Assembly: GCA_021790335.1 (NCBI GenBank)
Contig: JAJYEE010000002.1
Location: 68,164-132,163, forward strand
Length of the DNA: 64,000 bases
Source of the DNA: Pseudomonadota bacterium
Lineage (GTDB): Bacteria; Pseudomonadota; Gammaproteobacteria; Acidiferrobacterales; UBA6901
Reading direction: 5' to 3'
Position numbers and translations under genes: made by a program. Position 1 is the stretch's first letter; every line of letters begins with the position of its first letter. This document shows positions 8,579-43,373 of this stretch, piece after piece. The notes beneath the pieces were generated by a model. The model saw only the letters and a list, made by a program, of their open reading frames with translations, was not told the origin of the DNA and did no database searches.

Positions 8579-8702
8579 AGTCGGGGTCGTGCCTGCCAGG
8601 CACCGGAAGAGCAGCCGCGCGCGTTCTGCCATCGCGGAGGAAATCCTGGAGGCAGCTGTTCCGTACGGCTGCAGATAACCGAGTGTACCGAGGCGCCTGA
8701 GC

Positions 8703-14268: not shown

Positions 14269-14684
14269 TTATCCAAAATTTCCCGACGCCCGGTCCAATG
14301 TACCGCACGCGCGGACGGCCACCTGGAGCCTCATGAAATAAACTCAAAGGCACACACCCCGCCGGCGATGAATATCATCCACCCGGCGTGGGCACGGTGG
14401 TTACCGCCCGGGCTGCTACGTCCCGTGGCGTCTTATTCGTTGCACCACTTCGGTCGGGTGAGCGGTGCGGAACCCATAGACGGCCCCACGGGCTACAAGC
14501 CTGCCGAATGCGTTTTCGGCGAGACGAGACCCCGGTTGTGGCCGATACCAGGCTTGCGCCCGGTACAAAAACCGGCAAAAAAGAAAACACCGCACCTACT
14601 GTTCGTCCCGGACGAACGGGTGGCGCGGGTGCCTCAATATAACAGCGCATCGCTATCCCTGCAAATCTGTTATCATTTTTGTCT
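14269..14684. other. Divergent rne/rluC intergenic region
   Basis: 416 bases without a convincing gene. By analogy with E. coli, where a long 5' leader of rne mediates autoregulated cleavage, the rne-proximal part may be a structured leader; this is inference. The rluC side carries an extended -10 element close to the start codon. Confidence 0.5.
14668..14676 (+). promoter_or_regulatory. Candidate extended -10 promoter for rluC
   Basis: TG-T-TATCAT is an extended -10 match ending 8 bases before the rluC ATG. No good -35 hexamer and no Shine-Dalgarno sequence are seen, so transcripts from here would be essentially leaderless. Confidence 0.4.
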
Positions 14685-15686: not shown

Positions 15687-15696
15687 GCGCGAACCC

Positions 15697-16347
15697 ATGA
15701 ACGCGCGTTATGACCTGATCGTATTCGACTGGGACGGTACGCTGATGGATTCCGAGCGCAAGATCGTGCGCTGCATGTCGGCTGCCGCCGCCGATCTGGG
15801 CCTTGCCGATCCCGGTGCCGATGCGATCCGCCAGATCATAGGTCTGGGCCTCGACGAGGCCATGGGAGAACTTTTCCCGCAGGCGCCGGCCGCGCTGCGG
15901 CAGCGTCTTACGCTGCGTTACCGTGAGCACTTCCTCAGTCTTGACCAGACGGACATGCCGCTGTTCCCGGGCGTGCAGGAGGGGCTGCCGCGCCTGGCGC
16001 AAGAGGGTTTCCTGCTGGCGGTGGCGACCGGCAAGGCGCGGCGGGGGCTTGACCGGGTCCTGGACGAAACCGGTACCCGCCGCTATTTTTCCGCCACCCG
16101 CTGTGCCGACGAGTCATTCTCCAAGCCTCATCCGGGAATGCTCGAAGACATCCTCGGACAGACCGGAGTCCCGCGCGACCGTGCACTGATGGTCGGTGAC
16201 ACGACCTACGACATGCTGATGGCGCGCAATGCGGGAATTGCGGCGCTTGCCGTGAGCTACGGTGCGCACGACCGCGCGCAGCTGCTTGAATGCGCGCCGC
16301 TCGGCTGCGTGGATTCGTTCGCCGAAATATGCCGCTGGGTTTCGTGA
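15697..16347 (+). CDS. HAD-superfamily phosphatase (phosphoglycolate phosphatase-like, YqaB/Gph type)
   Basis: 216 aa, ATG 15697, 10 bases after rluC. Motif I FDWDGTLMDSE, motif II threonine in VATGKARRGL, motif III lysine in ESFSKPHPGML and motif IV MVGDTTYDM give a complete HAD subclass IA hydrolase. A helical cap lies between motif I and II. The likely reaction is phosphomonoester hydrolysis of a small metabolite; close relatives beside rluC are annotated as Gph-like but substrates vary. Confidence 0.9.
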   Translation: MNARYDLIVFDWDGTLMDSERKIVRCMSAAAADLGLADPGADAIRQIIGLGLDEAMGELFPQAPAALRQRLTLRYREHFLSLDQTDMPLFPGVQEGLPRLAQEGFLLAVATGKARRGLDRVLDETGTRRYFSATRCADESFSKPHPGMLEDILGQTGVPRDRALMVGDTTYDMLMARNAGIAALAVSYGAHDRAQLLECAPLGCVDSFAEICRWVS

Positions 16348-16799
16348 AGCCGGAGCGCACCCCCGCAGGTGCATCGGCGACGGATGGCGCGCGCTGTGTG
16401 CGTCCCGGGGATCATATATGCGATATGCACGAGCTGGAGGACGGCGGCCGCGGTGTCCGCTTCATGCTGACCGCAGCCGATGGGCTGCGAACGGCGTTCG
16501 TCGTCCGCCATGCGGGCCAGGTGTATGGCTATCTGAACGAGTGCGCCCAGCGCGCACTCGAGCTCGACTGGGTGGAGGGCGAGTTTTTCGACGCGCATCG
16601 GGAGTTCCTGATTTGCGCCGTCCACGGCGCGCGCTATGATCCGGTGAGTGGGGCCTGCATCGATGGAGCGTGTGCTGGCCGAGGGTTGGCAGGACTGCCT
16701 CTGGAAATCTCCGGCGACGAGGTGCGGCTCGCGCGCGAGCTGTCCGTTCCCTGCCGACCGGCTGACCGAAACCCTGACACAGCGAGTACGCAAGAATGA
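16329..16799 (+). CDS. Rieske-type [2Fe-2S] domain protein with altered first ligand motif
   Basis: 156 aa from ATG 16329, overlapping the HAD gene by 19 bases; a longer start at 16290 is possible. The Rieske second motif is intact (ICAVHGARYDPVSGAC, C-x2-H near residue 96). The first motif reads CAQRALELDW (~67) where C-x-H is expected, so a cluster-ligand histidine is replaced by glutamine. It lies between the HAD and sppA-like genes, a neighbourhood where small ferredoxin-like Rieske proteins are common in gammaproteobacteria. Function in that context is unknown. With three of four ligands, cluster binding is doubtful. Confidence 0.8.
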   Translation: MPLGFVKPERTPAGASATDGARCVRPGDHICDMHELEDGGRGVRFMLTAADGLRTAFVVRHAGQVYGYLNECAQRALELDWVEGEFFDAHREFLICAVHGARYDPVSGACIDGACAGRGLAGLPLEISGDEVRLARELSVPCRPADRNPDTASTQE

Positions 16800-17773
16800 C
16801 GGAAAACAGCACGGAACCGGGCAGCGACGAAAAGGGCCGCAGCGGGCAGTGGGAGCGCAGCCTCCTGGAACGGCTGGCATTCGCGGCGTTGACCGAACAG
16901 CGCAGAGCGCGCCGCTGGGGAATCTTTTTCAAGCTGCTGCTCGTTGTGATCGTGCTCGGCATCATTATCCTGTCCGAGACGGGCAACTGGGGAAAGTCCG
17001 CGCTGGTCGGCAGGTACACCGCGCTGGTCCATCTTGATGGCGTGATTTCGGCCGACAGCCAGGCCAGCGCCGACAACGTCATCTCCGGCCTGCGCGCGGC
17101 GTTCGCCAGCAAGCAGACCGCGGGAGTCATCGTGAGCGCGGACAGTCCGGGCGGCAGCCCGGTACAGTCTGCCGAGATCTACAATGCGATAAGGCGGCTG
17201 CGCCGCAAATACCCGAAGATACCGCTGTACGCAGTGATCGGCGACGAGTGTGCGTCGGGCTGTTACTACGCGGTTGCCGACGCCAAGAAGATCTATGCGA
17301 ATCAGGCCAGCATTGTCGGGTCGATCGGCGTGCTGATAGACGGGTTCGGATTCGTCGATGCAATGCACAAGCTGGGAATCAAGCGGCGACTGCTTACCGC
17401 TGGCCGCTACAAGGGCATACTGGACCCGTTTTCGCCGCTTGCACCGAAGGAACGGAGCTATGCGCTGGGCATGCTGAGCGAGATCCACCGCCAGTTCATC
17501 GACGCCGTGAAGCGCGGACGCGGCAGCGCTCTCAAGAAAAACAAGAACCTGTTCAGCGGATTGTTCTGGACCGGCGAAGACGCCCGCAAGCTCGGCCTGG
17601 TCGATGGTTTCGGCAGCACTCGCTACGTGGCGCGCAAGATCATCGGCGCCCGGCACATCGTCGATTTCACGGTGCAGCAGAACTTCTTCGATCGCGTGGC
17701 CGGTCGCATCGGCACAAGCATCGCACAGCGCTTCGAAGCCGACCTGTTCCAGCCGGTGCCGCGACTGCGCTGA
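16796..17773 (+). CDS. sppA: Signal peptide peptidase SppA-like S49 serine protease
   Basis: 325 aa, with ATGA overlap to the Rieske-like gene. One transmembrane helix near residues 43-62 (IFFKLLLVVIVLGIIIL) anchors a periplasmic S49 protease domain. The serine is in CASGCYYAVAD and the general-base lysine in LTAGRYKGILDPFSP. SPGGSPVQSAEIYNAI and IVGSIGVLIDGFGF are typical. It is the short (single-domain) SppA form, degrading cleaved signal peptides or membrane proteins. SGC replaces the more usual SGG after the serine. The gene ends 20 bases from the convergent pentapeptide-repeat gene. Confidence 0.9.
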   Translation: MTENSTEPGSDEKGRSGQWERSLLERLAFAALTEQRRARRWGIFFKLLLVVIVLGIIILSETGNWGKSALVGRYTALVHLDGVISADSQASADNVISGLRAAFASKQTAGVIVSADSPGGSPVQSAEIYNAIRRLRRKYPKIPLYAVIGDECASGCYYAVADAKKIYANQASIVGSIGVLIDGFGFVDAMHKLGIKRRLLTAGRYKGILDPFSPLAPKERSYALGMLSEIHRQFIDAVKRGRGSALKKNKNLFSGLFWTGEDARKLGLVDGFGSTRYVARKIIGARHIVDFTVQQNFFDRVAGRIGTSIAQRFEADLFQPVPRLR

Positions 17774-17793
17774 GCGCCGGTGCGCGCGGCGCT

Positions 17794-18138
17794 TTACGCG
17801 TAGCGCATGCGCGTTCCGTGCAGCAGGGACAGCGTAATCTCCTCGGCCGAAAGCTCCTGCGGAAAAAGAGTGCCGGAAATCTTGGCGCCATTGATGCTGG
17901 CGCCCTCGAGGCGGGCGCGCGAGAAATCGACGCCGCGCAGATCGGTCTGGCGGAAATAGCAGCCGCTGAAGTCGATTCCCTCGGCGAGGAGTCCGCGCAG
18001 GTCAAGGCCGCGAAAATCGCAATCCGCCAGATCGGGCGTGTCCCCGTGCTGGCGGCGTTCGTTGAAATCCTTGACCCGAGCTTCGCGCAGCAGCCGGTAG
18101 AGAGGGTCCGGGTTGTTGTGTATCGGTTTCAGGGTCAT
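17794..18138 (-). CDS. Small pentapeptide-repeat protein
   Basis: 114 aa. ATG 18138 was chosen over 18162 because GGAGG precedes it at 8 bases. The centre holds about eight pentapeptides of the A(D/N)LxX type (ADCDF RGLDL RGLLA EGIDF SGCYF RQTDL RGVDF SRARL), which fold as a right-handed beta helix. Flanks are short helical segments with no enzyme motif. No signal peptide, so probably cytoplasmic. Its role is unknown; some relatives mimic DNA and bind gyrase, but nothing here shows that. It is the last gene of the pycA-pycB-maf minus-strand group. Confidence 0.85.
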   Translation of the reverse strand: MTLKPIHNNPDPLYRLLREARVKDFNERRQHGDTPDLADCDFRGLDLRGLLAEGIDFSGCYFRQTDLRGVDFSRARLEGASINGAKISGTLFPQELSAEEITLSLLHGTRMRYA

Positions 18139-18228
18139 GGCCGTACCTCCGGGAACGGGCAATCCCCACTGGATCTGCCTTTATCCCAGAATAATTATAG
18201 CGGCCCACCGCGGCTGCGGAAGCCCGCA

Positions 18229-18825
18229 TCAGAGAATGCGGATCGCCTCGTTCTCGAGCATTCTGCGCAGGGCGATGAGCGGCAGGCCGATGAGCGCCGT
18301 AGGATCGTCGCCTTCGAAGCGCTCCAGCAGCGCGATGCCTAGCCCTTCCGATCGCAGGCTGCCGGCGCAGTTGTAGGGTTTGTCCTTGCGCAGGTAGCAT
18401 TCGATGTCCTGGTCGCTCAGGCGCCGGAAAACCGTAGCAAACGGAACGACCTCGCTCTGCGTACGGCCGCTCGCCGCGTCGATCACAGCGAGTCCGGTAT
18501 GGAGCACGACCCGGCGCCCGGATGCCTCGCGCAGTTGCTGGACTGCGGCTTCGTGGTCTGCGGGCTTGCCCACGATGCGCCCGTTCTGGACCGCTACCTG
18601 GTCGGAGCCGATGACCAGTGCCGTCGGATGCAGGCGGGCGATGGCATTCGCCTTGGCGACAGCAAGGCGCTCGACCAGTGCTTGCGGCAACTCGTGTGCG
18701 AGCGGCTGTTCGTCGACTTCCGGGGCGATGGCGCGGAACGGAAGCTGCAGACGCTGCAGCAGCTCGCGCCGGAATACCGAAGAGGAGGCAAGAATCAGTT
18801 CGCGCTGCGGCACGGAAGCGGGCAC
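18229..18825 (-). CDS. yceF: Maf-like nucleotide pyrophosphatase (YceF type)
   Basis: 198 aa. N-terminal LILASSSVFRRELLQRL is the Maf signature. The catalytic acidic residues are in EVDEQ and VIGSDQVA, followed by VGKPADHEAAVQQLREASGR. YceF-type Maf proteins hydrolyse 7-methyl-GTP and related non-canonical nucleotides. In other gammaproteobacteria yceF is normally divergent from yceD-rpmF. Here that neighbourhood is kept, but the two biotin-enzyme genes are inserted between maf and yceD in the maf orientation. It starts 25 bases after pycB. Confidence 0.92.
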   Translation of the reverse strand: MPASVPQRELILASSSVFRRELLQRLQLPFRAIAPEVDEQPLAHELPQALVERLAVAKANAIARLHPTALVIGSDQVAVQNGRIVGKPADHEAAVQQLREASGRRVVLHTGLAVIDAASGRTQSEVVPFATVFRRLSDQDIECYLRKDKPYNCAGSLRSEGLGIALLERFEGDDPTALIGLPLIALRRMLENEAIRIL

Positions 18826-18850
18826 CGGTGGCGCACGGGAAATAGGCGCA

Positions 18851-20674
18851 TCAGCCGATCTCTAGCAGTACTTCGTCGGGATTGACGCTGTCGCCTTTGG
18901 AGGCGTAGACCGTCTTGACCGTGCCGGCGACGGGGGCCGGCACTTCGTTTTCCATCTTCATCGCTTCGATGACGAGTACCGGATCTCCCGCTTCGACGTG
19001 CCCACCCGGCTGCACCAGCACCGCTACGACGGTCCCCGGCATCGAGCTGGTGACGTGTCCTTCCTTGCTGGCTTTGGGCCGGTGCGAGACCTTGGAAGGC
19101 CGGGTGGCAACGCCGCCTTCGGCAGCGATCCCTTCCGCCAGCGTTTCCACGAGTATCTCTTCCGGCATGCCATCGACGGTGACGTAGAATGGCCGGCGGT
19201 GTTCGCTGCGGTGTCCGGCACCGGTGATCTTCAGATGATAGGTCTCCCCGTGCACGGTAACATTGAATTCGGTAGGCGCGGCCGTTGCCGGTCCGGGCAC
19301 GACCGGTGCGGTTTGGACCTGCTCGGGTGCGAGCAATGACCCAGCGCGCGCTTCAAGAAACGCGCGCCCGACTTCCGGAAACATGGCATAGGTGAGTACG
19401 TCCTCCTCGCTGCTTGCGATGGCTCCGGCAGCCGCGGTGAGTCGCGCCATCTCCGGTTTCAGCGTATCGGCGGGGCGGCAGCTGATGACTTCCTCGTCAC
19501 CGATCGCCATTCTGCGGACGGCTTCGTTCACCGGACCCGGTGCCCGCCCGTAGCGGCCCTGGAGATACAGCTTCACCTCGCTGGTGATGCTCTTGTATCT
19601 GCGGGCGGTCAGCACGTTGAGCACGGCCTGTGTGCCGATGATCTGGGAGGTCGGAGTCACGAGCGGCGGGTAGCCGAGGTCCTCGCGTACCCGCGGAATC
19701 TCGGCCAGCACCTCGGGCATGCGTTGCAGCGCACCCTGTTCGCGGAGCTGGTGCGCCAGGTTGGAAATCATCCCGCCCGGAACCTGGTTGACCTGCACCC
19801 GAGTGTCGACGCCGCTGTGCTCGCTTTCGAATTGACGGTACTTCTTGCGTACTTCATGAAAATAGCTGCCGATATCCTGCAGCAGTTCGAGATCAAGCCC
19901 GGTGTCGTATGGAGTGTCGCGGAAGGCGACGACCATGGATTCGGTCGGCGAATGGCTCGTGCCCCAGGACATCGAACTAATCGCGGTGTCCACATGTCTT
20001 GCACCGTTCTCGACCGCCTTGTACATGCTTATGTTGGCGATACCCGCAGTCGTGTGGGAGTGAAAGTGGAGGGGAATCTTCACCCTGGTGGACATCGCCG
20101 CGAACAGCTCGCTCGCGCGCACCGGGGTGAGCAGCCCTGCCATGTCTTTGATGCACAGGCTGTGGCAGCCCATCTTCTCGATCTCGACCGCCTGCTTGAC
20201 GAAATGCTCGATCGTGTGGACCGGGCTTGTGGTGTAGCAGATCGCGCCCTGCGCGTGCTTGCCGGCGGCGATCACCGTGGCCACCGAGACCTGGATGTTG
20301 CGCAGGTCGTTCATGGCATCGAATATGCGGAAGACTTCGACGCCGTTGAGTGCCGCCTTGCGTATGAAAGCGGCGACCACGTCATCCGAGTAATGGCGAT
20401 AGCCGAGAAGGTTCTGGCCGCGCAGCAGCATCTGGATCGGGGTGTTGGGCAGCGCCGTCCTGAGGTGTCGCAGGCGCTCCCATGGGTCCTCCTTCAGGAA
20501 TCGGATACAGGCGTCGAAAGTGGCGCCGCCCCAGGCTTCTATCGACCAGAAGCCTGCGCGGTCGAGCTTGTCGCAGACCGGCAGCATGTCCTCGGTGCGC
20601 ATGCGTGTGGCGATCAGCGACTGGTGCGCGTCGCGCAGTGCGAGTTCGGTAACGAACACCTTCTTCGACTTCAT
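18851..20674 (-). CDS. pycB: Two-subunit pyruvate carboxylase subunit B / oxaloacetate decarboxylase alpha-like, with biotinyl domain
   Basis: 607 aa. The carboxyltransferase domain (~1-300) starts with VTELALRDAHQSLIATRMRTEDM and contains the metal-site HFHSHTTAG and the lysine of LCIKDMAG. A conserved PYC/OADA domain (~310-470) and a Pro/Ala linker follow. The biotinyl domain ends the protein, with the biotin-accepting lysine in EAMKMEN. It transfers carboxyl from biotin to pyruvate, giving oxaloacetate. The biotin carboxylase subunit gene lies 21 bases upstream and no decarboxylase beta or gamma subunits are present, favouring anaplerotic pyruvate carboxylase over a sodium pump. Confidence 0.9.
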   Translation of the reverse strand: MKSKKVFVTELALRDAHQSLIATRMRTEDMLPVCDKLDRAGFWSIEAWGGATFDACIRFLKEDPWERLRHLRTALPNTPIQMLLRGQNLLGYRHYSDDVVAAFIRKAALNGVEVFRIFDAMNDLRNIQVSVATVIAAGKHAQGAICYTTSPVHTIEHFVKQAVEIEKMGCHSLCIKDMAGLLTPVRASELFAAMSTRVKIPLHFHSHTTAGIANISMYKAVENGARHVDTAISSMSWGTSHSPTESMVVAFRDTPYDTGLDLELLQDIGSYFHEVRKKYRQFESEHSGVDTRVQVNQVPGGMISNLAHQLREQGALQRMPEVLAEIPRVREDLGYPPLVTPTSQIIGTQAVLNVLTARRYKSITSEVKLYLQGRYGRAPGPVNEAVRRMAIGDEEVISCRPADTLKPEMARLTAAAGAIASSEEDVLTYAMFPEVGRAFLEARAGSLLAPEQVQTAPVVPGPATAAPTEFNVTVHGETYHLKITGAGHRSEHRRPFYVTVDGMPEEILVETLAEGIAAEGGVATRPSKVSHRPKASKEGHVTSSMPGTVVAVLVQPGGHVEAGDPVLVIEAMKMENEVPAPVAGTVKTVYASKGDSVNPDEVLLEIG

Positions 20675-31690: not shown

Positions 31691-32378
31691 CCACGTTGGC
31701 GGGAAACAGGCCATCGCTCAGCCGCGATGACTGTTTCCCGGTCGCCTCTTGGCAACCGGAACCATGAGATCACCTCACCGGTCACTCGCGCCATTCAATT
31801 TCACTGCCCGCGTGCGATGATGGCGTCGAGACATTTCAGCGTCTGGCCCTTGTCGGCGGGTTTGACGCTCTTTATCTGCCACAGCCGGGGCCCGCGGCAG
31901 TCGGTTTCGCCGTGGAGTCTTTGTGACAGGCCGGCATCGGCCGGGCAGTGCCGATGGCGGGTGCGAACAGGGATTGCGTGATGCCCGCATAGGGTGAGGC
32001 AGGGCGGTTTTGGCGCCCAAACCCTTCGCCGCAGGCAGATACTGGCACGGAAACACGCAGCCTCTTGCTCGCAGTTCCTGCCGGCTAAATGTATCATAAC
32101 GTTATGAACATGCCGCAGTTTTTCCGCCTTTCCGGCCGAACTCGAAACCGGGCATACAGGTATGGATCCGCGCTTCGGAATCGCCTTGATGCCGGCAACG
32201 GGCAAGTTGTGTTGTGTCGATCCGTGGGGTACGCGGCGAATCGTTGCGCCCGGCTGCAAGATCCCGGGATCACGTTACCGCCGTGCGCATGCCGCGGACC
32301 GCGGCATGCGGTGTGCGCGCACCGGCGAGGGAAGCCGCACGCTGCGGTGATGGCGGTAGGAAATCTCGTCACAGCGAC
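31691..32378. other. 688-base region without a confident gene, upstream of mltG
   Basis: Overlapping ORFs on both strands show no recognisable domain. A minus-strand ORF ending at 31801 finishes with a plausible-looking tail (CRGPRLWQIKSVKPADKG) and may be a small unknown gene starting at ATG 32097. A perfect 14-bp palindrome spans its putative start. Confidence 0.35.
32094..32107. promoter_or_regulatory. Perfect 14-bp palindrome TCATAACGTTATGA, candidate operator
   Basis: The sequence is fully self-complementary in an AT-rich patch of otherwise GC-rich DNA, 272 bases before mltG. Such symmetry fits a dimeric repressor site. The regulator is unknown. Confidence 0.4.
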
Positions 32379-33491
32379 ATGAGGAGTCGGATTTTGGGAA
32401 AATTCGTCAAGGTGCTGAAGTATGGTCTCATGGCAGCGGCGGCCCTGGTGCTAGGAATGGCTGCTTACCTGCTCTGGTTCGGAATCACCCCGCTGTCGCC
32501 GGCGCGCAAGATCTACGTAGTGCAGCCCGGCACCAGTCTGCATGCCTTCAGCCGCGAGCTCTACGACCAGCATGTCCTGCCGGATCCGAACACCCTGGTG
32601 CTGCTGGCCTACCTGCGCGGTGAGAGTCGAAGTCTGAAGGCCGGCGAATATCGCTTCCACCACGGCGTCACGGCGTTCGACATTCTCGAGCAGGTGATCG
32701 CCGGAAAGGTGGCTCAGTATCCGTTCACCATCGTTGACGGCTGGACATTCGCCCAGGTCATGCAGTCGCTCGATGCGGCACCGCATCTGCTCCACACCTT
32801 GAGCGATCTGACGCCGGCCGAGATCATGGCGAGCCTGGGACATCCCGGGGTTTCGCCAGAAGGGCGGTTCTTCCCGGATACCTATGACTATGCAGCGGGT
32901 ATGTCCGATCGGATGATCCTGCAGCGCGCCTATCTCAGAATGCAGCGCACGCTGCGGAAGGAATGGGCCGATCGCGACCCGACCGTTCCGCTGAAAACGC
33001 CGGGTCAGGCCCTGATCCTGGCTTCCATCATCGAAAAAGAAGCGAGCCTGCCAAGCGAGCGCCGAATCATCGCCGGCGTGTTCGTCAACCGCCTACGGAT
33101 GGGCATGAGGCTGCAAACCGATCCGACCGTGATCTACGGCATGGGTAGCCGTTACCACGGCAAGATCACGACCGCGGATCTGCACCGCTGGACACCGTAC
33201 AATACCTACGTCATATCCGGCCTGCCGCCAACGCCGATTGCCATGCCGAGCGAGGATGCGCTGCATGCCGCGCTCAATCCGGCCGACACCAAGGCGCTTT
33301 ATTTTGTGGCGCGAGGGGATGGCACCCATGCATTTTCCGATACCCTGCAGGGCCAGGATCGGGCCGTCATGAAGTATCAGCTGCACGGCAGAAGTTCACC
33401 GCAACCGTTGGCAGCGGAGCGCAAGGCGAGACCGGTGCGGCAGGTGCGCCGCTCCGGTCCGCTGTCCCGCGTCGGTGACGCCGCGCCATGA
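32379..33491 (+). CDS. mltG: Endolytic murein transglycosylase MltG (YceG)
   Basis: 370 aa from ATG 32379; a TTG at 32394 with GAGGAG upstream is an alternative. One N-terminal membrane helix (LMAAAALVLGMAAYLLWF) is followed by a LysM-like region (YVVQPGTSLHAFSREL) and the YceG domain with catalytic Glu in LASIIEKEASLPSER. LQTDPTVIYGMG and YNTYVISGLPPTPIAMPS are hallmark motifs. It cleaves nascent glycan strands in the periplasm and sets strand length. A basic C-terminal tail of ~30 residues is extra. Confidence 0.95.
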   Translation: MRSRILGKFVKVLKYGLMAAAALVLGMAAYLLWFGITPLSPARKIYVVQPGTSLHAFSRELYDQHVLPDPNTLVLLAYLRGESRSLKAGEYRFHHGVTAFDILEQVIAGKVAQYPFTIVDGWTFAQVMQSLDAAPHLLHTLSDLTPAEIMASLGHPGVSPEGRFFPDTYDYAAGMSDRMILQRAYLRMQRTLRKEWADRDPTVPLKTPGQALILASIIEKEASLPSERRIIAGVFVNRLRMGMRLQTDPTVIYGMGSRYHGKITTADLHRWTPYNTYVISGLPPTPIAMPSEDALHAALNPADTKALYFVARGDGTHAFSDTLQGQDRAVMKYQLHGRSSPQPLAAERKARPVRQVRRSGPLSRVGDAAP

Positions 33492-34111
33492 TCCGGGGGC
33501 GGTTCCTCACGCTCGAGGGTATCGAGGGAGCCGGCAAAAGCACGAATCTGGAGTTCGTCCAGCAGCTGCTGCGGTCCGCCGCAATTCCTCATCTCGTGAC
33601 ACGTGAACCCGGAGGCACTGTTCTTGGCGAGGCATTGCGCGAAATCATGCTGCATGCAGATCGCACGGACATCTGTGCGGACAGCGAACTGCTGATGATG
33701 TTTGCCGCGCGCGCCCAGCACCTCGCTGAACGCATCCGGCCAGCCCTGGATGAGGGCATGTGGGTAGTGTGCGACCGGTTTACCGACGCCACCTATGCCT
33801 ACCAGGGAGGCGGGCGTGGCATACCCGATGAGCGCATCCGCATTCTCGAGAACTGGGTGCAGGGCGCGCTGCGGCCGGATCTGACACTGCTGTTCGATAT
33901 TCCGGTCGACCAGGGACTTGCACGGGCCGGCAGGCGCAGTGCTCCGGACCGTTTCGAGCGCGAAAAGCAGGAATTCTTCGAACGCGTACGCCGGCACTAC
34001 CTGGTGGCTGCTGCCCGCGAGCCGGGGCGCATCCGCGTCATTGATGGCGCACTCACACCGGGACAGGTCCAGGACGCGATCCGTGTGATCCTGCAGGAAT
34101 TCCTGCCGTGA
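33488..34111 (+). CDS. tmk: Thymidylate kinase
   Basis: 207 aa, ATGA overlap with mltG. P-loop EGIEGAGKST, DRX motif in VCDRFTDATYAYQGGGRG and lid region DRFEREKQEFFERVR are all present. It phosphorylates dTMP to dTDP. The mltG-tmk-holB-pilZ-tatD run is a classic gammaproteobacterial order, each gene overlapping or touching the next. Confidence 0.97.
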   Translation: MIRGRFLTLEGIEGAGKSTNLEFVQQLLRSAAIPHLVTREPGGTVLGEALREIMLHADRTDICADSELLMMFAARAQHLAERIRPALDEGMWVVCDRFTDATYAYQGGGRGIPDERIRILENWVQGALRPDLTLLFDIPVDQGLARAGRRSAPDRFEREKQEFFERVRRHYLVAAAREPGRIRVIDGALTPGQVQDAIRVILQEFLP

Positions 34112-35103
34112 ACACCAGCGCACGGCTATATCCGTGGACGCTGAGCCAGGCGCGTCGCATCACACAGGATATCGAACGCTTGCCGCATGCCCTGCTGCTC
34201 GCCGGACCGCGCGGTTTGGGCAAGGCCGCATGCGCTGCCCATGTGGCGCAGGTCCTGTGCTGCGAGCGCCCGGACGGTGCCGCACCATCGTCGTGCGGAA
34301 CCTGCCAGAACTGCCGTCTGCTGGCGGCCGGCACGCATCCCGACGTCCAGTGGGTGGTACCGGCGGAGGAAGGGAAAGCCGTCACCATCGATCAGATCCG
34401 GGCGCTGGCGCAGTTTCTGCACCTGCGGCCGCATATCGGACAGCGCAAGGTCGTCATCATTTCACCGGCCGAGGCGATGAACACCCATGCCGCGAACAGT
34501 CTGCTCAAGCTGCTGGAGGAGCCGCCACCGGACAGTCTGCTGCTTCTGGTCAGCTCCGATCCGGTACGGCTGCCGGCCACCGTGCGCAGCCGCTGCCAGC
34601 GGGTGACTTTCCCCCGGCCGGCACGCAGCGAAGCGCTGGCCTGGCTGCGGGCGATCGAGGGATTTCCCGGCGAGCAGGCCGAACTGCTTCTGGAACTGGC
34701 CGGCGGTGCACCGCTGCAGGCAGCGGCGCTGCAGCAGGACGGTTTTCTGGCGGTGCGCGGTGAACTGCTGGAGGATATCGAGACGCTCGGAACCGGGAAG
34801 GGAGATCCGGTTTCCTGTGCCGCACGCTGGAAATCGCATGGCGCGCGCCGCTGCCTGGAGTGGCTGGAGGGTGGGGTCATGGATCTGATCAGAATCGGCA
34901 TGGCGCCCACGCACGGAACCCTGGCGAACCGCGATTCCAGCGCGCGGTTGCATGTGCTGGAAAAGAGGTTAAACTTGAAACAGTTATTCCGTTTTCTTGA
35001 GGCGGTTTCCGAGAGCAGGCATCTTCTGGACGGACCCGCCGACGAACTGTTGCTGCTCGAGGACGTGCTGATTCGCTGGAGCAGACTGGCACAGCAGAAA
35101 TAG
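34108..35103 (+). CDS. holB: DNA polymerase III delta-prime subunit
   Basis: 331 aa, GTG 34108 overlapping the tmk stop. AAA+ fold with a modified P-loop GPRGLGKAA, zinc-binding cysteines in SCGTCQNCRLL, LLKLLEEPPPDSLLLLVSSDP and the SRC motif in VRSRCQRVTFP. The C-terminal clamp-loader collar region is helical. It is part of the clamp loader that places the beta clamp on DNA. The P-loop threonine is replaced by alanine, in line with delta-prime not hydrolysing ATP. Confidence 0.94.
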   Translation: MNTSARLYPWTLSQARRITQDIERLPHALLLAGPRGLGKAACAAHVAQVLCCERPDGAAPSSCGTCQNCRLLAAGTHPDVQWVVPAEEGKAVTIDQIRALAQFLHLRPHIGQRKVVIISPAEAMNTHAANSLLKLLEEPPPDSLLLLVSSDPVRLPATVRSRCQRVTFPRPARSEALAWLRAIEGFPGEQAELLLELAGGAPLQAAALQQDGFLAVRGELLEDIETLGTGKGDPVSCAARWKSHGARRCLEWLEGGVMDLIRIGMAPTHGTLANRDSSARLHVLEKRLNLKQLFRFLEAVSESRHLLDGPADELLLLEDVLIRWSRLAQQK

Positions 35104-35106
35104 CCC

Positions 35107-35475
35107 ATGGCCGAAAACATCAAACCGGTTGCTTCTGTCGCACGACCCGGCGTGCTTTCCCTCACTATCAAGGACAAGAACGCTTTGTATGCGGCCTACA
35201 TGCCGTATGTGAAGGGGGGCGGCATATTCATCCCCAGCACCAAGGCCTATAAGCTCGGTGACGAGGTATTCATGCTGCTCACGCTGATGGACAGCAAGGA
35301 GAAGATCCCCGTGGCGGGCCATGTGATATGGGTTACTCCGGTCGGGGCCCAGGGCAGCCGCGCCGCGGGCATCGGCATCCAGTTCAGCGAAAAAGACTCG
35401 GGTACTGCGCGCAACAAGATCGAGACCCTTCTCGCTGGCCAGCTCACCTCGGACAAGCCGACCCATACCATGTAA
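35107..35475 (+). CDS. pilZ: PilZ-domain protein (type IV pilus biogenesis PilZ)
   Basis: 122 aa, 3 bases after holB. A single PilZ fold: LSLTIKDKNALYAAYMPYVKGGGIFIPS, then GHVIWVTPVGAQGSRAAGIGIQF. The c-di-GMP-binding RxxxR and D/NxSxxG motifs are not clear. This matches canonical PilZ, which acts in pilus assembly rather than as a c-di-GMP receptor. The type IV pilus link is supported by the minor-pilin operon at 52-60 kb. Confidence 0.92.
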   Translation: MAENIKPVASVARPGVLSLTIKDKNALYAAYMPYVKGGGIFIPSTKAYKLGDEVFMLLTLMDSKEKIPVAGHVIWVTPVGAQGSRAAGIGIQFSEKDSGTARNKIETLLAGQLTSDKPTHTM

Positions 35476-36290
35476 TGCCGATGGCTTTTCTGACGGATTC
35501 CCACTGTCATATAACCTTCGAACCTCTCGCCAGCCAGCTTCCCAGGATTCTGCAGAATGCCCGCGCGAATGCGGTAGGCTGTCTGCTCTGCGTATCGGTG
35601 AATCTCGAAGGGTTCCCGCAGGTGCTGCAGGTCGCACACGACCAGCCGCAGGTCTATGCCTCGGTCGGCGTCCATCCCAGCGAGACCGAAGGCCAGGACC
35701 CGACGGTCGAGCAGCTCCTTGCCCTGGCCGACGACGCGCGCGTCGTGGCGATCGGCGAGACCGGACTGGACTACTATCGGTCGGCCGGTAACGAGGCGAG
35801 CCAGCAGGAACGCTTCCGCCGGCATATCCGCGCTGCCCGCGAATGCGGCAAGCCGCTGATCATTCACACACGTGAAGCTGCGGCCGACACGTTGCGCATC
35901 CTGCGGGAGGAGGGCGCGGAGCAGGTTGGCGGCGTCATGCACTGTTTTACCGAGGACTGGGATACGGCGAGCGCCGCCTTGGATCTGGGCTTTTACATCT
36001 CCTTCTCCGGCATCCTGACTTTCAAGAACGCCGACGCCCTGCGCGCTGTCGCCGCGCGCGTTCCCGAAGACCGGCTGCTGGTCGAAACCGATGCCCCCTA
36101 TCTTGCTCCGGTACCCTTCCGTGGTCAGACGAACGAGCCGGCGTATGTGCGACATGTTGCCGAACGGCTCGCCACGTTGCGCGACCTGAGCCTGGAGCGG
36201 ATCAGCGACGCCACCACCGGAAATTTCTTCAGGCTGTTTACCGCTGCCCGAATGCCCGATGGACCATCGTTGCAGCCGACGCAGTCCTGA
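35475..36290 (+). CDS. tatD: TatD-family metal-dependent DNase
   Basis: 271 aa from ATG 35475, sharing one base with the pilZ stop; a second ATG two codons on is possible. Metal-binding DSHCH, the Glu of IGETGLDYY, LIIHTREA, MHCFTE and ETDAPYLAP are all conserved. It is a TatD/YcfH hydrolase acting as 3'-5' DNase or RNase. Its 3' end overlaps the convergent PLP-enzyme gene by 53 bases. Confidence 0.94.
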   Translation: MPMAFLTDSHCHITFEPLASQLPRILQNARANAVGCLLCVSVNLEGFPQVLQVAHDQPQVYASVGVHPSETEGQDPTVEQLLALADDARVVAIGETGLDYYRSAGNEASQQERFRRHIRAARECGKPLIIHTREAAADTLRILREEGAEQVGGVMHCFTEDWDTASAALDLGFYISFSGILTFKNADALRAVAARVPEDRLLVETDAPYLAPVPFRGQTNEPAYVRHVAERLATLRDLSLERISDATTGNFFRLFTAARMPDGPSLQPTQS

Positions 36291-37989
36291 GCTGCGTGGA
36301 TCCGCTCTCCCCGGACCGGGCCGCGGCGCATTTTGCGGGTGCAGGTTCGCCGTGTCGCGCCGGCTGCGGGTCGCCGACGCGCGGGAGATCCCGAAACAGC
36401 CCGGCCCGCACCAGCCACGCGGTCTTGTCGAGCACCGTCAGGGCTTCATCTACGATCTCGCGGGCCGCCCTGCCTTCCCTTGTTGCCGCGATGATCTGCC
36501 GCGCGCCGACGCTCAGACGCAGGGCGCTCAGTGGCGTGGCGCCATCGCTTCCGCATACGACCGGCTGACCGAGCTGGCAGCGCAATCCGGCGGCTTTTTC
36601 CTCGGCGCGTGACAGGTGCAAATCCGGTCGATCAGTCAGGCGGGTCCTGATCAGCCGGTATACTGCCTGAGTTTCTTCCGGACCCAGGAACGCAGTGCCG
36701 GCACGGACTCCACTGCAGCGCAGCAGGAAGGGAAAGATCGTGGGGATGCTGTCCCAGCCATCGGTCCCTGTCAGCGGCCGACGGTCGATGTCCGGCACCG
36801 GCACTGCCCGGAACAGAGGGTCGTCCGCCAGCCGGCCAGCGATTGCCGTGGCGAAAATGCGCAGGAAGGCCCGGATCTCGGTTTCCGGCACTGCACGCAA
36901 GGCGCGCAGCTCGGCGAGCGCCGCCTCCCAGCGCAGCAACAGTCCGGGATTGGCGACCTGGTCGAGGAGCTCGGCTCCCTGCCAGTTGCGGGGCCATTCG
37001 GCGCGTGCCGAATAGGCCGACATCGCCCGGCCCAGAGACTGCTGGCGAAAACGGTCAGCGGCCGACTGCGGGATGAGCAAGGCGCCCGAAAAACTGGGTC
37101 CGCCGAGAAACTTGGATCCGGTCAGCGCAACCATGAAGCCCTGTTCCAGATAAGCGCGCACGGTCGATGCCGCGATGCGGAACTGACACGCGTCGACAAG
37201 CACATCGATCCTGTCCGGCATGGCGGTACGCAATGCCGCCATGCACGCCGGGCTCGGCACGAGCATTCCCGTTTTGCTCAGATCATTGAGAACCAGAAGA
37301 ACGCGGCGGCCGCGTGCCAACGCCTGCATGGCATGCTTCTCGACTGCTGCATCGATGTCCTGCGACGGGAGCGGACTGCCGTCCGCGCGGCGGATGGCGA
37401 CAGTCGCCACCGGTAGCGCAGCGTCCGGTCCGACCGGGCCGCCTTCAGCCACGCTGTCGCCGCGTGCGCTGCGGGAGCTGAAATGGCGGCAGGTGACGGC
37501 AGCTGGAACCCCGGCGCCGGTTTCGGTTCCGTCGATCATGATGACCAGTGGTGGCACCGGGTGGATGGTGCGCACCAGAGAGGCTGCAATCAGGTGAATG
37601 TCGGTGCCGGAGGCGGCAAATATGATCTCGGCACCAGGGGCGCCGGAAAGCTGTGCCAGCTCCAGGCGCATGCGCTCGAGTTCCCGGACATAGAGCGCGG
37701 CACGCGCACCGCCCGGCGTGCCGGCGAGCCGGTCGCGGAGACGGTCGGCCGCGCGAAATGCCGGATCGGAAATCGCCGAAGCCGTCGTGGATCCGTAAGC
37801 CGCCATGCCGGGATCCGGGAATGGCGTGCACCCATAGCGGTTAGCGCCACTGTACGGATCGAGTGCGATGCGGGCATCTCCACCTTCGACGAGCAGCTGC
37901 CCGGTCGTGGGGAAAGTGCGGGTCTGCCGTGGCGGCAAGAGCACTGTGTGCCGGGCTGCGGCGGATGCCCTGTAAAGCACGTTTCTCAT
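36238..37989 (-). CDS. Large fold-type I PLP-dependent enzyme (aminotransferase-like), third gene of an unassigned operon
   Basis: 583 aa. ATG 37989 overlaps the stop of the upstream ATP-grasp gene by ATGA; the track's longer ORF is antisense extension. Fold-type I features: PLP-ring aspartate in VLVDACQFR and Schiff-base lysine in ALTGSKFLGGPSFSG (~293). The N-terminal YSGANRYGCTPFPDPG and FAASGTDIHLIAASL resemble class V-like substrate and phosphate-binding loops. After ~450 there is an extra domain with no clear match. Reaction unknown. Translational coupling to the ATP-grasp and decarboxylase genes implies one pathway. Confidence 0.78.
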   Translation of the reverse strand: MRNVLYRASAAARHTVLLPPRQTRTFPTTGQLLVEGGDARIALDPYSGANRYGCTPFPDPGMAAYGSTTASAISDPAFRAADRLRDRLAGTPGGARAALYVRELERMRLELAQLSGAPGAEIIFAASGTDIHLIAASLVRTIHPVPPLVIMIDGTETGAGVPAAVTCRHFSSRSARGDSVAEGGPVGPDAALPVATVAIRRADGSPLPSQDIDAAVEKHAMQALARGRRVLLVLNDLSKTGMLVPSPACMAALRTAMPDRIDVLVDACQFRIAASTVRAYLEQGFMVALTGSKFLGGPSFSGALLIPQSAADRFRQQSLGRAMSAYSARAEWPRNWQGAELLDQVANPGLLLRWEAALAELRALRAVPETEIRAFLRIFATAIAGRLADDPLFRAVPVPDIDRRPLTGTDGWDSIPTIFPFLLRCSGVRAGTAFLGPEETQAVYRLIRTRLTDRPDLHLSRAEEKAAGLRCQLGQPVVCGSDGATPLSALRLSVGARQIIAATREGRAAREIVDEALTVLDKTAWLVRAGLFRDLPRVGDPQPARHGEPAPAKCAAARSGESGSTQLRTASAATMVHRAFGQR

Positions 37990-39254
37990 CCATCGCTCCA
38001 TGGACCGGAATGCGGCGCACGCGCCGCCGTCGCGGCAAGCATCTCGCGGAATGCCCGGAACACCTTGCGCATCGGTGCCTGCTTGTAGGGGAAAATATCG
38101 ACCGGATCCATCGCGTGAACCACCGCGCTGCTGTCGATCTCGAAAATCAGAAGCTGTCCGTCGGGTGTCTCGGCGCAGTCGATCACGAGATAGTCGAGTC
38201 CGATCCGCTCGTTGACGGCACGCAGGGCAGAGCCGTGCCGCAGCGCGAACCCGTCGTCGAACTCTTGCATGAAGCGCTCCTCCTCCAGCCGCTTCTCGGC
38301 GCTCTGCATCATGCCGGCGTTGATGTAATGGATCATCCAATGTTCGGACACCGCCATATGGCAGGCGAAGGGACGGCCCTGGATCAGCGCGATCCGGAAT
38401 TTGCGGAACAGGTGATCCCGGCCGCTGTAGTCGACAAAGCGTGCGATGCAGAAATGCTCCTGCGGCATGCCTTCCAGGTAGCTTGAAATCGCTTCGGGGC
38501 CGTCAATCTTCTCCAGGCCCCGGCCGGCATGCGAGTCGGTCGGGCGGATGATGATGGGGAACCCGCCGTCGCCGAGGACCATGCTGACATCAAGGGTTCT
38601 GTGGGCGATCTGCTCAAGAGCGGCACGCTCGATGCGCACCGATACCGGTGTGACGACTCCGGGGATGTCCCGCAGCAGCGCCGACGCAGTATCGCGCGAC
38701 AGGCGCGCGATCCGGTCAGGACGGTTGAGCACCGGCCGTGGCCAGTCCTTAAGTGCGCTCACCAGTTCTTTCAGCAGCGGTCTGTTGTTCTCGGACTCTC
38801 CGACAGCCACGAACAGCAGATCATGCTCCGGGATGGCTGCCGGAATCGGCAAGGACGCAGACAGGTACAGCATGTCCAGCTGCACATCGGAATCCTGAAT
38901 CAGAAATTCAATCGGAGTATTCGACATCAGATCGCCCGGCGCCATGAGTACGAGCACGCGTATTGCGACCCGGCCATCGTCCGGCGCGATCTGGTATAGC
39001 CTGCTGAGGGCCAACGCCTGCTGCTGGGCATTGAGCGCAAGATCCGGTTTTCCGACCAACTGCAGCATCGTGGCCAAATCCATGAGGGCATTGGCATCGC
39101 CCAGATCCTGCTGGACACGCGCAATGAATCCGGACCCGATCGCGTTCAGATCACCCCCGGCGCACAGCTTCTTCATCAGCGCCGCCATGCCCTGCAACGG
39201 TTGGTGGATGTGGCGGGTGTCCGTGCCTGCCCGCCTGACTGCCTCACTCGTCAT
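37986..39254 (-). CDS. TPR-like/ATP-grasp ligase, second gene of an unassigned operon
   Basis: 422 aa from ATG 39254, which has GGAGG immediately upstream and overlaps the decarboxylase end by 11 bases. Residues ~25-85 look like a degenerate TPR pair (LMDLATMLQLVGKPDLALNAQQQALAL). From ~200 on, a RimK-like ATP-grasp domain: PIIIRPTDSHAGRGLEKI (glycine-rich lid), YSGRDHLFRKFRIALIQG and the metal-binding IFEIDSSAVVHAMDP. ATP-grasp enzymes join a carboxylate to an amine through an acyl-phosphate. The amine could come from the neighbouring decarboxylase; that is inference. Confidence 0.78.
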   Translation of the reverse strand: MTSEAVRRAGTDTRHIHQPLQGMAALMKKLCAGGDLNAIGSGFIARVQQDLGDANALMDLATMLQLVGKPDLALNAQQQALALSRLYQIAPDDGRVAIRVLVLMAPGDLMSNTPIEFLIQDSDVQLDMLYLSASLPIPAAIPEHDLLFVAVGESENNRPLLKELVSALKDWPRPVLNRPDRIARLSRDTASALLRDIPGVVTPVSVRIERAALEQIAHRTLDVSMVLGDGGFPIIIRPTDSHAGRGLEKIDGPEAISSYLEGMPQEHFCIARFVDYSGRDHLFRKFRIALIQGRPFACHMAVSEHWMIHYINAGMMQSAEKRLEEERFMQEFDDGFALRHGSALRAVNERIGLDYLVIDCAETPDGQLLIFEIDSSAVVHAMDPVDIFPYKQAPMRKVFRAFREMLAATAARAPHSGPWSDG

Positions 39255-40812
39255 GATGCCTCCAGTTGCGGGCGCTGTATCGGCGGCCAATCCCGAGCGT
39301 CGCTTCGATGAAAATATCCATGTCCTCGTCTGCCGTGCGGTGATTCACGATGGCGGCGCGGATTGCAAGCTGGCCTCCGACTGTCGTGGTCGATGGAGCT
39401 GCAATTCCCGATTCCTGCAGGTCGGCAACGATGTTCGCATTCAGCTTGTCGGACGCGTCACCGCGGTAGCGGAAGCAGACAATGTTCAGAGATACCGGAG
39501 CAAGGAGTTCGAGTTCCGGTTCGGTCTCGATTCTGCCGCCAAGGTATCGGGCCCGAGCACAGCAGCCGGAAATGGCCTGGCCAAGGTGGTCTGCGCCATA
39601 TACGCTGATCGTGAACCAGGTTTTGAGGGCCCGGAAGCCGCGCGACAGATCGGGGCCGAAATCGCAGGGCCACGGCGATCCGGAAGCCATTCCGCGTTGT
39701 CCGCGCCCCAGATACGGGGCGGGGGTGGCAAATGTGTCGTGATGCAGAGCGCCATCGCGCACCATCACGAATCCCGCGTCATAGGGGACCTGACCCCATT
39801 TGTGGAAATCGAAAGCGATCGAATCCGCGCGCTCCAATCCGGCCAGACGCGGCGCAATATCGGCAGCCAGCATCCCGAGCGCACCGTAAGCCCCGTCCAC
39901 GTGAAACCAGAGTTGTTGGCGCTGCGCCACGTCCGCCAGTTCTGCGAGATTGTCTATGGCGCCGACGTCAACGGTCCCAGCGGTTCCAGCGATGAAAAAG
40001 GGGGTAAATCCAGCACCCCGGTCCTCAACGATGGCCGCTTCAAGCGCACGGATATCCATCTGATGCCTGTGATCCAGGGGGATGATCCGCAGAGCATCGA
40101 CCCCGATGCCCGAGAGGTCGAGCGCGCGGGCAAGCGAACTGTGGGCGGATGCCGACGCATAAGCCCGCAGGCGGGTCCCGGTGGCGGCGACGCCGCGCGC
40201 ACGAACTGCCGGGCCGAGCGCGCCGGTGCGGGCGACCAGAACCGCGATAAAATTGGCCATCGAGGTACCCGTCACGAACAGTCCGCTTGCGCCGGTGGGA
40301 AATCCGAACAGTTCGCGCATCCAGTGCAGCACCTGCCGTTCTAGCGCAATCGGCGCCTGGTCGCGCCCGCCCAGATTGGCATTGAGTCCTGCTGCCAGCA
40401 TCTCGGCCAGCATGCCCACGGCTGTGCCGCCGCCGTGAACCCAGCCCATGAAACGCGGGTGCGCATTGCCCAACGCATACGGCAACACTGACTCCATGAA
40501 CACCTCATGAACGCTTTCGAGGTCGGATGGGTGGCGGGGCAGGGGCTGATCGAATCGACGACGGACCGCTTCGGGAGCCGGCTGCCAGACTGGGCGCTCG
40601 CGAATCCCTTCCAGGTAATCCAGCATGTCGTCGAGCATCCGGTGGCCCTGGGTGCGCAACGCCTCCCAGTCCTGGGGATCAAGCGATTGCGCACCGTCCG
40701 GTTCCGCAGGCGGCTTCGGGCGCGCCAGAATCGGGTCGTCCACAGCGCCAGATTTCTGGCGTATGCGGCGTTTGTATCTGGGCCGAGGGCTTGTCGTTTG
40801 CAAGTGGCGCAA
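39244..40812 (-). CDS. PLP-dependent group II decarboxylase (aromatic amino acid/glutamate decarboxylase-like)
   Basis: 522 aa from TTG 40812; GGA lies five bases upstream but the exact start is uncertain. The group II fold is complete: HPRFMGWVHGGGT, FVTGTSMANFIAVLVAR, WFHVDGAYGALGML with the PLP aspartate, and the lysine in AFDFHKWGQVPYD (~338). The enzyme decarboxylates an L-amino acid to an amine. The first ~40 residues are basic and non-conserved. It is the first gene of a three-gene overlapping operon with an ATP-grasp ligase and another PLP enzyme. Substrate specificity cannot be read. Confidence 0.85.
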   Translation of the reverse strand: MRHLQTTSPRPRYKRRIRQKSGAVDDPILARPKPPAEPDGAQSLDPQDWEALRTQGHRMLDDMLDYLEGIRERPVWQPAPEAVRRRFDQPLPRHPSDLESVHEVFMESVLPYALGNAHPRFMGWVHGGGTAVGMLAEMLAAGLNANLGGRDQAPIALERQVLHWMRELFGFPTGASGLFVTGTSMANFIAVLVARTGALGPAVRARGVAATGTRLRAYASASAHSSLARALDLSGIGVDALRIIPLDHRHQMDIRALEAAIVEDRGAGFTPFFIAGTAGTVDVGAIDNLAELADVAQRQQLWFHVDGAYGALGMLAADIAPRLAGLERADSIAFDFHKWGQVPYDAGFVMVRDGALHHDTFATPAPYLGRGQRGMASGSPWPCDFGPDLSRGFRALKTWFTISVYGADHLGQAISGCCARARYLGGRIETEPELELLAPVSLNIVCFRYRGDASDKLNANIVADLQESGIAAPSTTTVGGQLAIRAAIVNHRTADEDMDIFIEATLGIGRRYSARNWRHHDE

Positions 40813-41461: not shown

Positions 41462-42598
41462 TTATAAAGAAATTAGATCAAGCACCTGTTCCAGTACTTC
41501 GGTCCGGTGATAGGCATGCGGCGATAGCCGGATACCGCCGCCGCGCTGCGCGCAGATAACACGCTGCTCCTGCAAGTGCCGAAAGAGCGTTGCAGACGGA
41601 ATGGTCCGGTGGCGGAAGCTGACAATTCCCGCGTAGCGTCCCGGCTCATTGCGAGTGAGAAGCTCCAGTCTCGGATTGGCGCTGATACCCTCCATAAGCA
41701 GGCGCGCGTGGCCGAGCACACGGCCCTCGAGCTCGGTCAGTCCGATCTCCTCCAGCAGTTCCAGGCTTGCGGCAAATGCATGGATACCCAGCATGTTGGG
41801 ACTACCGCATTCAAAGCGGCGCGCCGAAGCTGCCGCGCTCCACTCGAGGCGATCAAAATCCTCCGGATGGTCGGTCATGTGCCAGCCATATTCGTGCAAT
41901 GTAAGCCGCTCGCGCCAGTAGGGGGAGCAGTAGAATACCGCGATGCCCTCGGGTCCGAGCATCCATTTGTGCGCATCGGAGGCCAGAAAGTCGATGCCCA
42001 TCTCCTGCACATCGTGGGGCACCACACCCAGACCCTGAATCGCATCCACGCAAAACGCGATACCGCGCCCGCGGCACTGGCGCCCCAAGCGGGCGAGATC
42101 CAGACGCAGACCCGTGACGTAGTGGATACTGCTCACCGACAGCAGGCGGGTGCGGTCATCCGCCGCCGCCAGCAAGGCCGATTCCGGATCTTCGCAATGT
42201 GCCAGCGGCACCTGGCGCAGCTCGACTCCGTATCGGCTCAATGACTCCCACACGATGCGGTTAGAAGGAAACTCGCCCGCCGCGATCACGACGTTATCGC
42301 CGGCGTGCCATGGGAATCCGTGGGCGATCATGGACAGCCCTTCCGATGTATTTTTGACGAGCGCGATATCCTCGGGTGACAGGGCATTGACCTGACGCGC
42401 AAGCTGCACACGCAGCGTGCGTTCCTGGTCCAGCCAGGATGGGTAGTCGTGCGCACCCATGTCGACGCACTCCGCGGCAAACCGGCGCACGGCGTCTCCG
42501 GTGCGCGTCGGCCAGGGTGCGACGGCCGCGTGATTGAGATACAACAGGTTCGAGTCTACGGGAAATTCCTGCTCGAAAAGCTCGATCAGATCTGTCAT
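41462..42598 (-). CDS. Class V aminotransferase (cysteine desulfurase/isopenicillin-epimerase-like)
   Basis: 378 aa from ATG 42598; the track start at 42646 is a TTG. Fold-type I features: NHAAVAPWP at the N-terminus, VKNTSEGLSMIAHG, CVDAIQGLGVVPHDVQEMGIDFLASDAHKWMLGPEG with the PLP lysine (~211), and RFECGSPNMLGIHAF. It lacks a clear SufS/IscS catalytic-cysteine loop, so desulfurase activity is doubtful. Relatives act on varied substrates. It is on the same strand as the decarboxylase operon, 650 bases upstream of it. A functional tie to that operon is possible but unproven. Confidence 0.82.
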   Translation of the reverse strand: MTDLIELFEQEFPVDSNLLYLNHAAVAPWPTRTGDAVRRFAAECVDMGAHDYPSWLDQERTLRVQLARQVNALSPEDIALVKNTSEGLSMIAHGFPWHAGDNVVIAAGEFPSNRIVWESLSRYGVELRQVPLAHCEDPESALLAAADDRTRLLSVSSIHYVTGLRLDLARLGRQCRGRGIAFCVDAIQGLGVVPHDVQEMGIDFLASDAHKWMLGPEGIAVFYCSPYWRERLTLHEYGWHMTDHPEDFDRLEWSAAASARRFECGSPNMLGIHAFAASLELLEEIGLTELEGRVLGHARLLMEGISANPRLELLTRNEPGRYAGIVSFRHRTIPSATLFRHLQEQRVICAQRGGGIRLSPHAYHRTEVLEQVLDLISL

Positions 42599-43373
42599 GG
42601 ATGGTGCCGGTATCCCCAGGGAGAAGCGATTTTGTTCGGTTCGCAAAGGAGCCTGGAGGAAAGCCCCATACGCTAACCATGCTGGATGACAACGGCACGG
42701 ATCATATCAAGCCGCGCGCCGCGCGTCTCGTTCTCTCTGGCACGCAGCGGCGCTTCCGGCACCCGTGCAGCATCGCCATCGAGCACATCCCGGATGACAC
42801 CGCGTGATCCGGACAATTTGAGCGATTTCGTTGCGTGACGGCAACGGATGGTGTACCAATCTCCGATGCACTGCGAAAAGCCGACTTCCCGTGTTGCGCG
42901 AATGAAGGCAGGAATGCAGCCTGCCGGCGTGGGTAATGGTCTGATCATCGGAACCATCACCGATTCCGGCGGTATTGAGAATCTTGCCTGCAACGAAGCC
43001 ATGAATGCCGAAGATGCCATCCGTCGCGCCTTCCGTGGCCTGTTTCTAAGTGCCGCGGCGTGAGGTGTTCGCTGGGCACACGGCCGCCATGCGAATCCGG
43101 ACTCGACGTGTCTGTGTATACGTTCCGGCTCAGACCGGCTGACGGCCAGGATGGAACGGCCATGAGATGCTGCTTCGGCCGCGGTTCGCGCAGGCCGCCT
43201 TGGGGCGCTTCGTGCGGCTCAACCACAGAAAAACCCGAGCCGGTGTGCGGGCTGAGGGATGGCGTCGCCGGCGCTTCAGGAATGAAGCGGTCGGTTTACT
43301 CGAAATCCTTCCGGACGCCGTGCCGTATGCTGTCGCTGCAGTGCTGGCGTTCCGGGGTCTACAGGATGGAACT
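42599..43373. other. 775-base region before the P-type ATPase without a confident gene
   Basis: ORFs on both strands (for example 42673-43020 minus, 42848-43063 plus) have no recognised domain, good ribosome site or supporting context. The region may hold eroded genes. Confidence 0.35.

Follow-up and report, generated by a model that had tools for sequence, protein, structure and literature searches.

The stretch of DNA analysed here, referred to as the window, comprises 64,000 nucleotides from a Pseudomonadota bacterium (contig JAJYEE010000002.1, positions 68,164 to 132,163). On its minus strand lie three overlapping genes, which we term DEC, GRASP and PLP3 and, together, the trio. An earlier note, made by a model from the sequence alone, had described them as an operon encoding a pyridoxal phosphate (PLP) decarboxylase, a tetratricopeptide repeat (TPR)/ATP-grasp ligase and a large fold-type-I PLP enzyme. 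The features, in window coordinates, are these:

39244..40743, minus strand: DEC, group II PLP-dependent amino-acid decarboxylase (PF00282), ~499 amino acids (aa) counted from the probable start GTG 40743
39249..39272, minus strand: DEC/GRASP junction, with a GGAGG Shine-Dalgarno sequence within DEC followed by the GRASP ATG; the 11-bp overlap is 39244-39254
37986..39254, minus strand: GRASP, a short TPR region and a RimK/LysX/Ddl-type ATP-grasp ligase, 422 aa
37986..37989, minus strand: GRASP/PLP3 overlap ATGA, 4 bp, read from the sequence
36238..37989, minus strand: PLP3, fold-type-I PLP enzyme, class-V-like by its model, 583 aa, with D266, K293 and R491 invariant

A conserved three-gene unit

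The overlaps of 11 bp and 4 bp between the three open reading frames (ORFs) were confirmed in the sequence. Translational coupling, which the earlier note had read from them, fits. A GGAGG lies inside the end of DEC (the junction reads GGAGG-N5-ATGACGAGTGA), and GRASP and PLP3 share an ATGA. The DEC reading frame is open upstream as far as TTG 40812; GTG 40743 is the more likely start, since homologues start a few residues ahead of the LDPQDW motif. A perfect inverted repeat, CGCCAGA-AA-TCTGGCG (40744-40761), lies immediately upstream of this probable start and may be an operator or the product of chance.

Scanning an alignment of GRASP against 84,980 species genomes identified at least 577 relatives, and our counts of gene order rest on the best 80 of these loci. 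Co-occurrence across genomes had been named beforehand as the observation on which the proposal would stand or fall, and the genes co-occur strongly: DEC, GRASP and PLP3 lie on one strand and in this order at 65 of the 80 loci (55 of the 63 where the flank is sufficient), with a median gap of -4 nt between DEC and GRASP. The hosts include Gallionella, Sulfuricella, Sulfuriferula, Sideroxydans, Methylobacter, Undibacterium and Variovorax, the range extending over Gamma- and Betaproteobacteria and Rhizobium, and DEC homologues from trios are 60-92% identical to one another. Natural fusions are also found, of GRASP with PLP3 (L050, L057) and of DEC with GRASP (L039, L140). In Rhizobium tumorigenes the trio is plasmid-borne and the order is GRASP-PLP3-DEC, a difference that speaks for its transfer as one module. 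The conservation of the trio across genera excludes a chance arrangement, and we conclude that the trio is a real, widely conserved functional unit.

GRASP is also found paired, in overlapping genes, with a SerC-like class-V aminotransferase (L013 9242-10336, L007 384-1454, L234 8300-9394, L246 8338-9456), as though the one class-V PLP enzyme were interchangeable with the other. A phage or defence origin of the trio was considered and rejected: PHROGs gave no match, and PADLOC only a weak DndA-like match of DEC. No paper that we found describes a trio of these families, the search having covered the openly readable literature; an earlier mention in subscription papers is possible.

The three proteins

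DEC matches Pyridoxal_deC (PF00282) with an E value of 6.5e-65 and 219.7 bits, against a curated Pfam cut-off of 27, and the motif containing its Schiff-base lysine, HKW (H337-K338-W339), is invariant in 23 sequences. Profile matches were obtained to 4obu, of the tryptophan decarboxylase type, and to DOPA, DfoJ and diaminobutyrate (DABA) decarboxylases. DEC falls far below the NCBIfam equivalog cut-offs of the named decarboxylases RhbB, PanP, MfnA and GAD and, as it meets no such cut-off, its substrate is not nameable. Assignment as an MfnA-type tyrosine decarboxylase was rejected, since DEC reaches 87 bits where the MfnA cut-off is 299.

Structure prediction, which the earlier note had suggested for all three proteins, places GRASP with the ATP-grasp enzymes. 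Its AlphaFold model has a predicted local distance difference test score (pLDDT) of 89.6, and Foldseek matches it to Ddl, LysX and RimK structures with E values of ~1e-10 or better. The sequence matches are weak (LysX_arch, E 0.0012; LysX 3vpd, E 0.0034). Residues D359, E372 and D374 are invariant in 34 sequences and, going by the ATP-grasp family, presumably bind metal. Ahead of the ATP-grasp part, the model shows two TPR-like helix pairs (residues 22-83), and Pfam TPR profiles on GRASP stay below cut-off; thus the ATP-grasp half of the original description stands, while the TPR region is present but short. The Rhizobium tumorigenes GRASP (L014 9354-9659) carries a C-terminal extension of ~100 aa with a Cys...His...Asp spacing, by eye C39-like peptidase, for which Pfam gave no match.

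With LysX and RimK as its best remote matches, GRASP might be a protein ligase of the RimK/LysX type and extend a ribosomal S6-like or carrier protein, without any involvement of the flagella discussed below. We regard this as very improbable, given that GRASP scores far under the family cut-offs (18 against 275.6 bits for LysX; 15.7 against 143.4 for rimK_fam) and that neither a carrier protein nor a small conserved ORF is among the recurrent neighbours.

PLP3 has no match in Pfam (E <= 10, Aminotran_5 PF00266 included), NCBIfam or PDB profile searches. Its model (pLDDT 85) is matched by Foldseek to Egt2, CsdA and SufS with probability 1.00 and template modelling (TM) scores to the target of 0.6-0.7. 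Compared with the class V enzymes CsdA/SufS and Egt2/EgtE, the fold and the spacing of the aspartate and lysine are alike (TM ~0.65), whereas sequence identity is just 12-17% and no profile matches. K293 (TGSKF), D266 (DACQ) and R491 are invariant among 32 aligned homologues, which bears out the earlier account of a 583-aa fold-type-I enzyme with its lysine and aspartate intact. D266 and K293 also line up with the Asp and Lys of a neighbouring Aminotran_5 protein, in an alignment that by itself is not significant. The extra C-terminal domain that had been attributed to PLP3 is unsupported: residues 543-583 form a disordered, unconserved tail (pLDDT <50), and most family members, being 431-557 aa long, end before or near it. 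Judged by its model, PLP3 is an undescribed fold-type-I PLP family with a class-V fold. Together with the PF00282 match of DEC, the folds of the GRASP and PLP3 models fit the enzyme classes that had been proposed.

Association with flagella

Clustering of the ORFs that neighbour the best 80 trio loci revealed flagellar gene families near 40 of them, in several arrangements. The recurrent neighbours are FliC, FliD, FliS, FlaG, FlgA-D, FlgE/F/G, FlgH, FlgI, FlgM and FlgN, and further FlhA, FlhF, FlhG, MotA/B, FliF, FliH, FliK and YcgR; ten families or homologues were confirmed by Pfam, and the others were recognised by eye from sequence. Because the best 80 loci are a biased set, we also took trio loci from an even sampling of genomes across the class and across Burkholderiales. 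Flagellar genes occur within ~10 kb at 8 of these 17 loci (7 by tblastn, and L131, where FliO and FliP were identified by eye among the ORFs) and in 0 of 16 longer random control windows from the same genomes. In a phylum-wide sample, flagellar genes were present within the same distance at 7 of 20 GRASP loci, these being among the 16 with DEC adjacent. In two genomes of 7-8 Mb from another class (L239, L245), flagellin genes stand on both sides of DEC and GRASP or next to them, and in L233 DEC is directly downstream of fliS.

The association is also seen at the level of whole genomes. In tests that ignore kinship, FlgI was present in 33/33 GRASP-bearing Pseudomonadota genomes of the phylum sample against 295/365 others (p 0.001), flagellin in 15/15 carriers against 68/105 other genomes in Burkholderiales (p 0.003), and FliS in 10/11 carriers against 49/90 in Methylococcales (p 0.02). 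Within the window's genus and family, flagellin was found in all three carriers (G000, G002, G003) and in none of the four other genomes (G001, G004, G005, G006). Only PLP3 is seen of the trio in G003, because its contig ends there.

The flagellar link is an unexpected association, and from it we infer a role in flagellum modification. Specifically, we propose tentatively, with our confidence close to evenly balanced, that the trio is an amidation-type pathway modifying flagellin or a flagellum-associated molecule. DEC, a decarboxylase by class, would convert an amino acid to an amine, and PLP3 may carry out class-V-type PLP chemistry on this or a related compound. GRASP, which has the modelled fold of an ATP-grasp ligase, would activate a carboxylate with ATP and join the amine to it as an amide, the product modifying flagellin, a glycan on flagellin, or another flagellar component; the TPR part of GRASP might dock the acceptor protein. 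The amine conjugate suggested in the earlier note fits these enzyme classes. As a whole its interpretation is partly supported, in that classes, coupling and conjugate idea stand, while the flagellar association was missed and the PLP3 tail over-read.

Several observations weigh against a flagellar role. About half of the loci, that of the window included, have no flagellar neighbours; in the window's own genome a complete-looking flagellar cluster, with a flagellin of 714 aa, is on another contig and the trio is not beside it, and the plasmid-borne trio of Rhizobium tumorigenes has no flagellar genes within the surrounding 17 kb. Relative to random segments, sigma-28 or sigma-54 promoters are not enriched upstream of DEC, such flagellar promoters being a common, not strictly defining, trait of flagellin modification systems. 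The flagellins of trio carriers show no clear signature or C-terminal change. A RimK-like target at the flagellin C-terminus was rejected, as the C-termini are alike in carriers and non-carriers, and so was a residue signature, the best column (p 6e-5 among 469) being confounded by phylogeny. Each of the co-occurrence tests is modest alone, because flagella are common, and phylogeny is uncorrected in them. Lastly, PLP3 relatives are found beside non-ribosomal peptide synthetase (NRPS) genes without GRASP, which points to a small molecule; the product of the trio may start as one.

Other products and known systems

There is thus a second explanation to consider, namely that the trio's product is a small molecule that remains free (a specialised metabolite, or a signal that is an amide or resembles a peptide), and that a common lifestyle or co-regulation, instead of any modification of the flagellum, accounts for the flagellar association. 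On rhizobial plasmids (Sinorhizobium, Rhizobium), PLP3 homologues of ~40% identity lie directly after or overlap NRPS genes (L015 7986-9482, L017 7968-9503, L018 7968-9503), with a phosphopantetheinyl transferase (PPTase) gene nearby and, in the Sinorhizobium ones, SagB-like or nitroreductase genes; their annotation is hypothetical only. An NRPS is also present in L137 (Burkholderiales, 8102-18857), where PLP3 is accompanied by ATPgrasp_ST (PF14397), a fold-III ornithine/diaminopimelate-type decarboxylase, a two-module NRPS with thioesterase, and a PPTase. This set provides the trio's three activities from partly unrelated families and is possibly an uncharacterised biosynthetic cluster. Furthermore, ATP-binding cassette transporter genes lie downstream of the trio in L135, and many trio loci are without a flagellar neighbour. 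We nevertheless consider a free small molecule somewhat unlikely, given that the trio is placed repeatedly inside flagellar clusters in different classes, that GRASP in the phylum sample occurs solely in flagellated genomes, even where it is alone or with a SerC-like gene, and that the TPR region is retained.

Among known pathways, archaeal methanofuran synthesis uses the decarboxylase MfnA, the ATP-grasp ligase MfnD and the PLP enzyme MfnC, an aminotransferase. The trio is similar in combining a group II decarboxylase, an ATP-grasp amine ligase and a PLP enzyme, a likeness that beyond the DEC/MfnA score is one of description.

The closest characterised logic is that of capsule amidation in Campylobacter jejuni. 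It involves two PLP enzymes, one of them Cj1437, and a C-terminal ATP-grasp amidoligase in Cj1438 (PMC11800379). The earlier note knew of no characterised pathway with this trio; this holds for these families, but two PLP enzymes and an ATP-grasp amidoligase do cooperate in Campylobacter (PMC11800379). Likened by description, the two systems share a PLP-derived amine and an ATP-grasp amidoligase. They differ in that the Campylobacter ATP-grasp is TupA-like and fused to a glycosyltransferase, the target is the capsule, and the phosphatase Cj1435 is needed (PMC11800379); no phosphatase family recurs next to the trio among the clustered neighbour ORFs.

By extension, the acceptor of the trio's amine might be a surface glycan, with GRASP acting on the carboxylate of a uronic acid in it, much as a PLP-made amino alcohol phosphate is joined to glucuronic acid in Campylobacter (PMC11800379). 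Genes of sugar and surface-modification type come after the trio in Methylobacter L031, and the PF14397 protein beside PLP3 in L137 belongs to a sugar-transfer-associated ATP-grasp family. Most trio loci, however, are without a glycosyltransferase island, the window genome's flagellar cluster has no evident glycosylation island, and GRASP is RimK/LysX/Ddl-like rather than TupA-like, the Pfam search having given no TupA-type match in the trio proteins. We therefore think this glycan route quite improbable.

Two flagellin modification systems share features with the trio. The sfmABCDE genes of Shewanella encode SfmE, an ATP-grasp protein of 412 aa that is required for full flagellin modification and affects flagellin mass (PMC3765264). 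The likeness is again by description: an ATP-grasp protein is present in both, whereas the Shewanella operon has PseI-like and reductase genes, with no decarboxylase or PLP3 described (PMC3765264). Caulobacter FlmG, a flagellin-modifying protein, binds flagellins via its TPR domain and, like GRASP, joins TPR to a catalytic domain; in FlmG this is a glycosyltransferase in place of the ATP-grasp, and the TPR part is longer (PMC7591256). A second GRASP-like protein, of 721 aa and with many TPRs, adjoins the trio, YcgR and fliE/F/G/H/I-type genes in L029 (11311-13476), and its layout of TPR and catalytic domain is like that of FlmG.

A narrower proposal is that the TPR-ATP-grasp protein puts an amino-acid-derived amine made by DEC and PLP3 directly on a carboxylate of the flagellin protein, which would amount to a non-glycan amidation of the filament in Alpha-, Beta- and Gammaproteobacteria. 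We judge this unlikely; were the acceptor flagellin itself, the trio could be categorically new. If the broader reading of flagellum modification is true, a chemistry of flagellum modification that has gone unrecognised is common to hundreds of environmental swimmers, namely iron oxidisers, methanotrophs, Burkholderiales and apparently Bradyrhizobium-like rhizobia, and the reuse of the PLP3 family in NRPS clusters would be explained. PLP3 is an enzyme family recognised by no public profile, and the trio, with three genes and carriers that can be cultured, lends itself to testing.

The window also holds, upstream of DEC and likewise on the minus strand, a CsdA/EgtE-like class-V PLP gene (41462-42646), which we rejected as a fourth member because it is kept in the congener L022 only. 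On the other side, convergent with the trio, is an ordinary housekeeping run, mltG-tmk-holB-pilZ-tatD (32214-36290).

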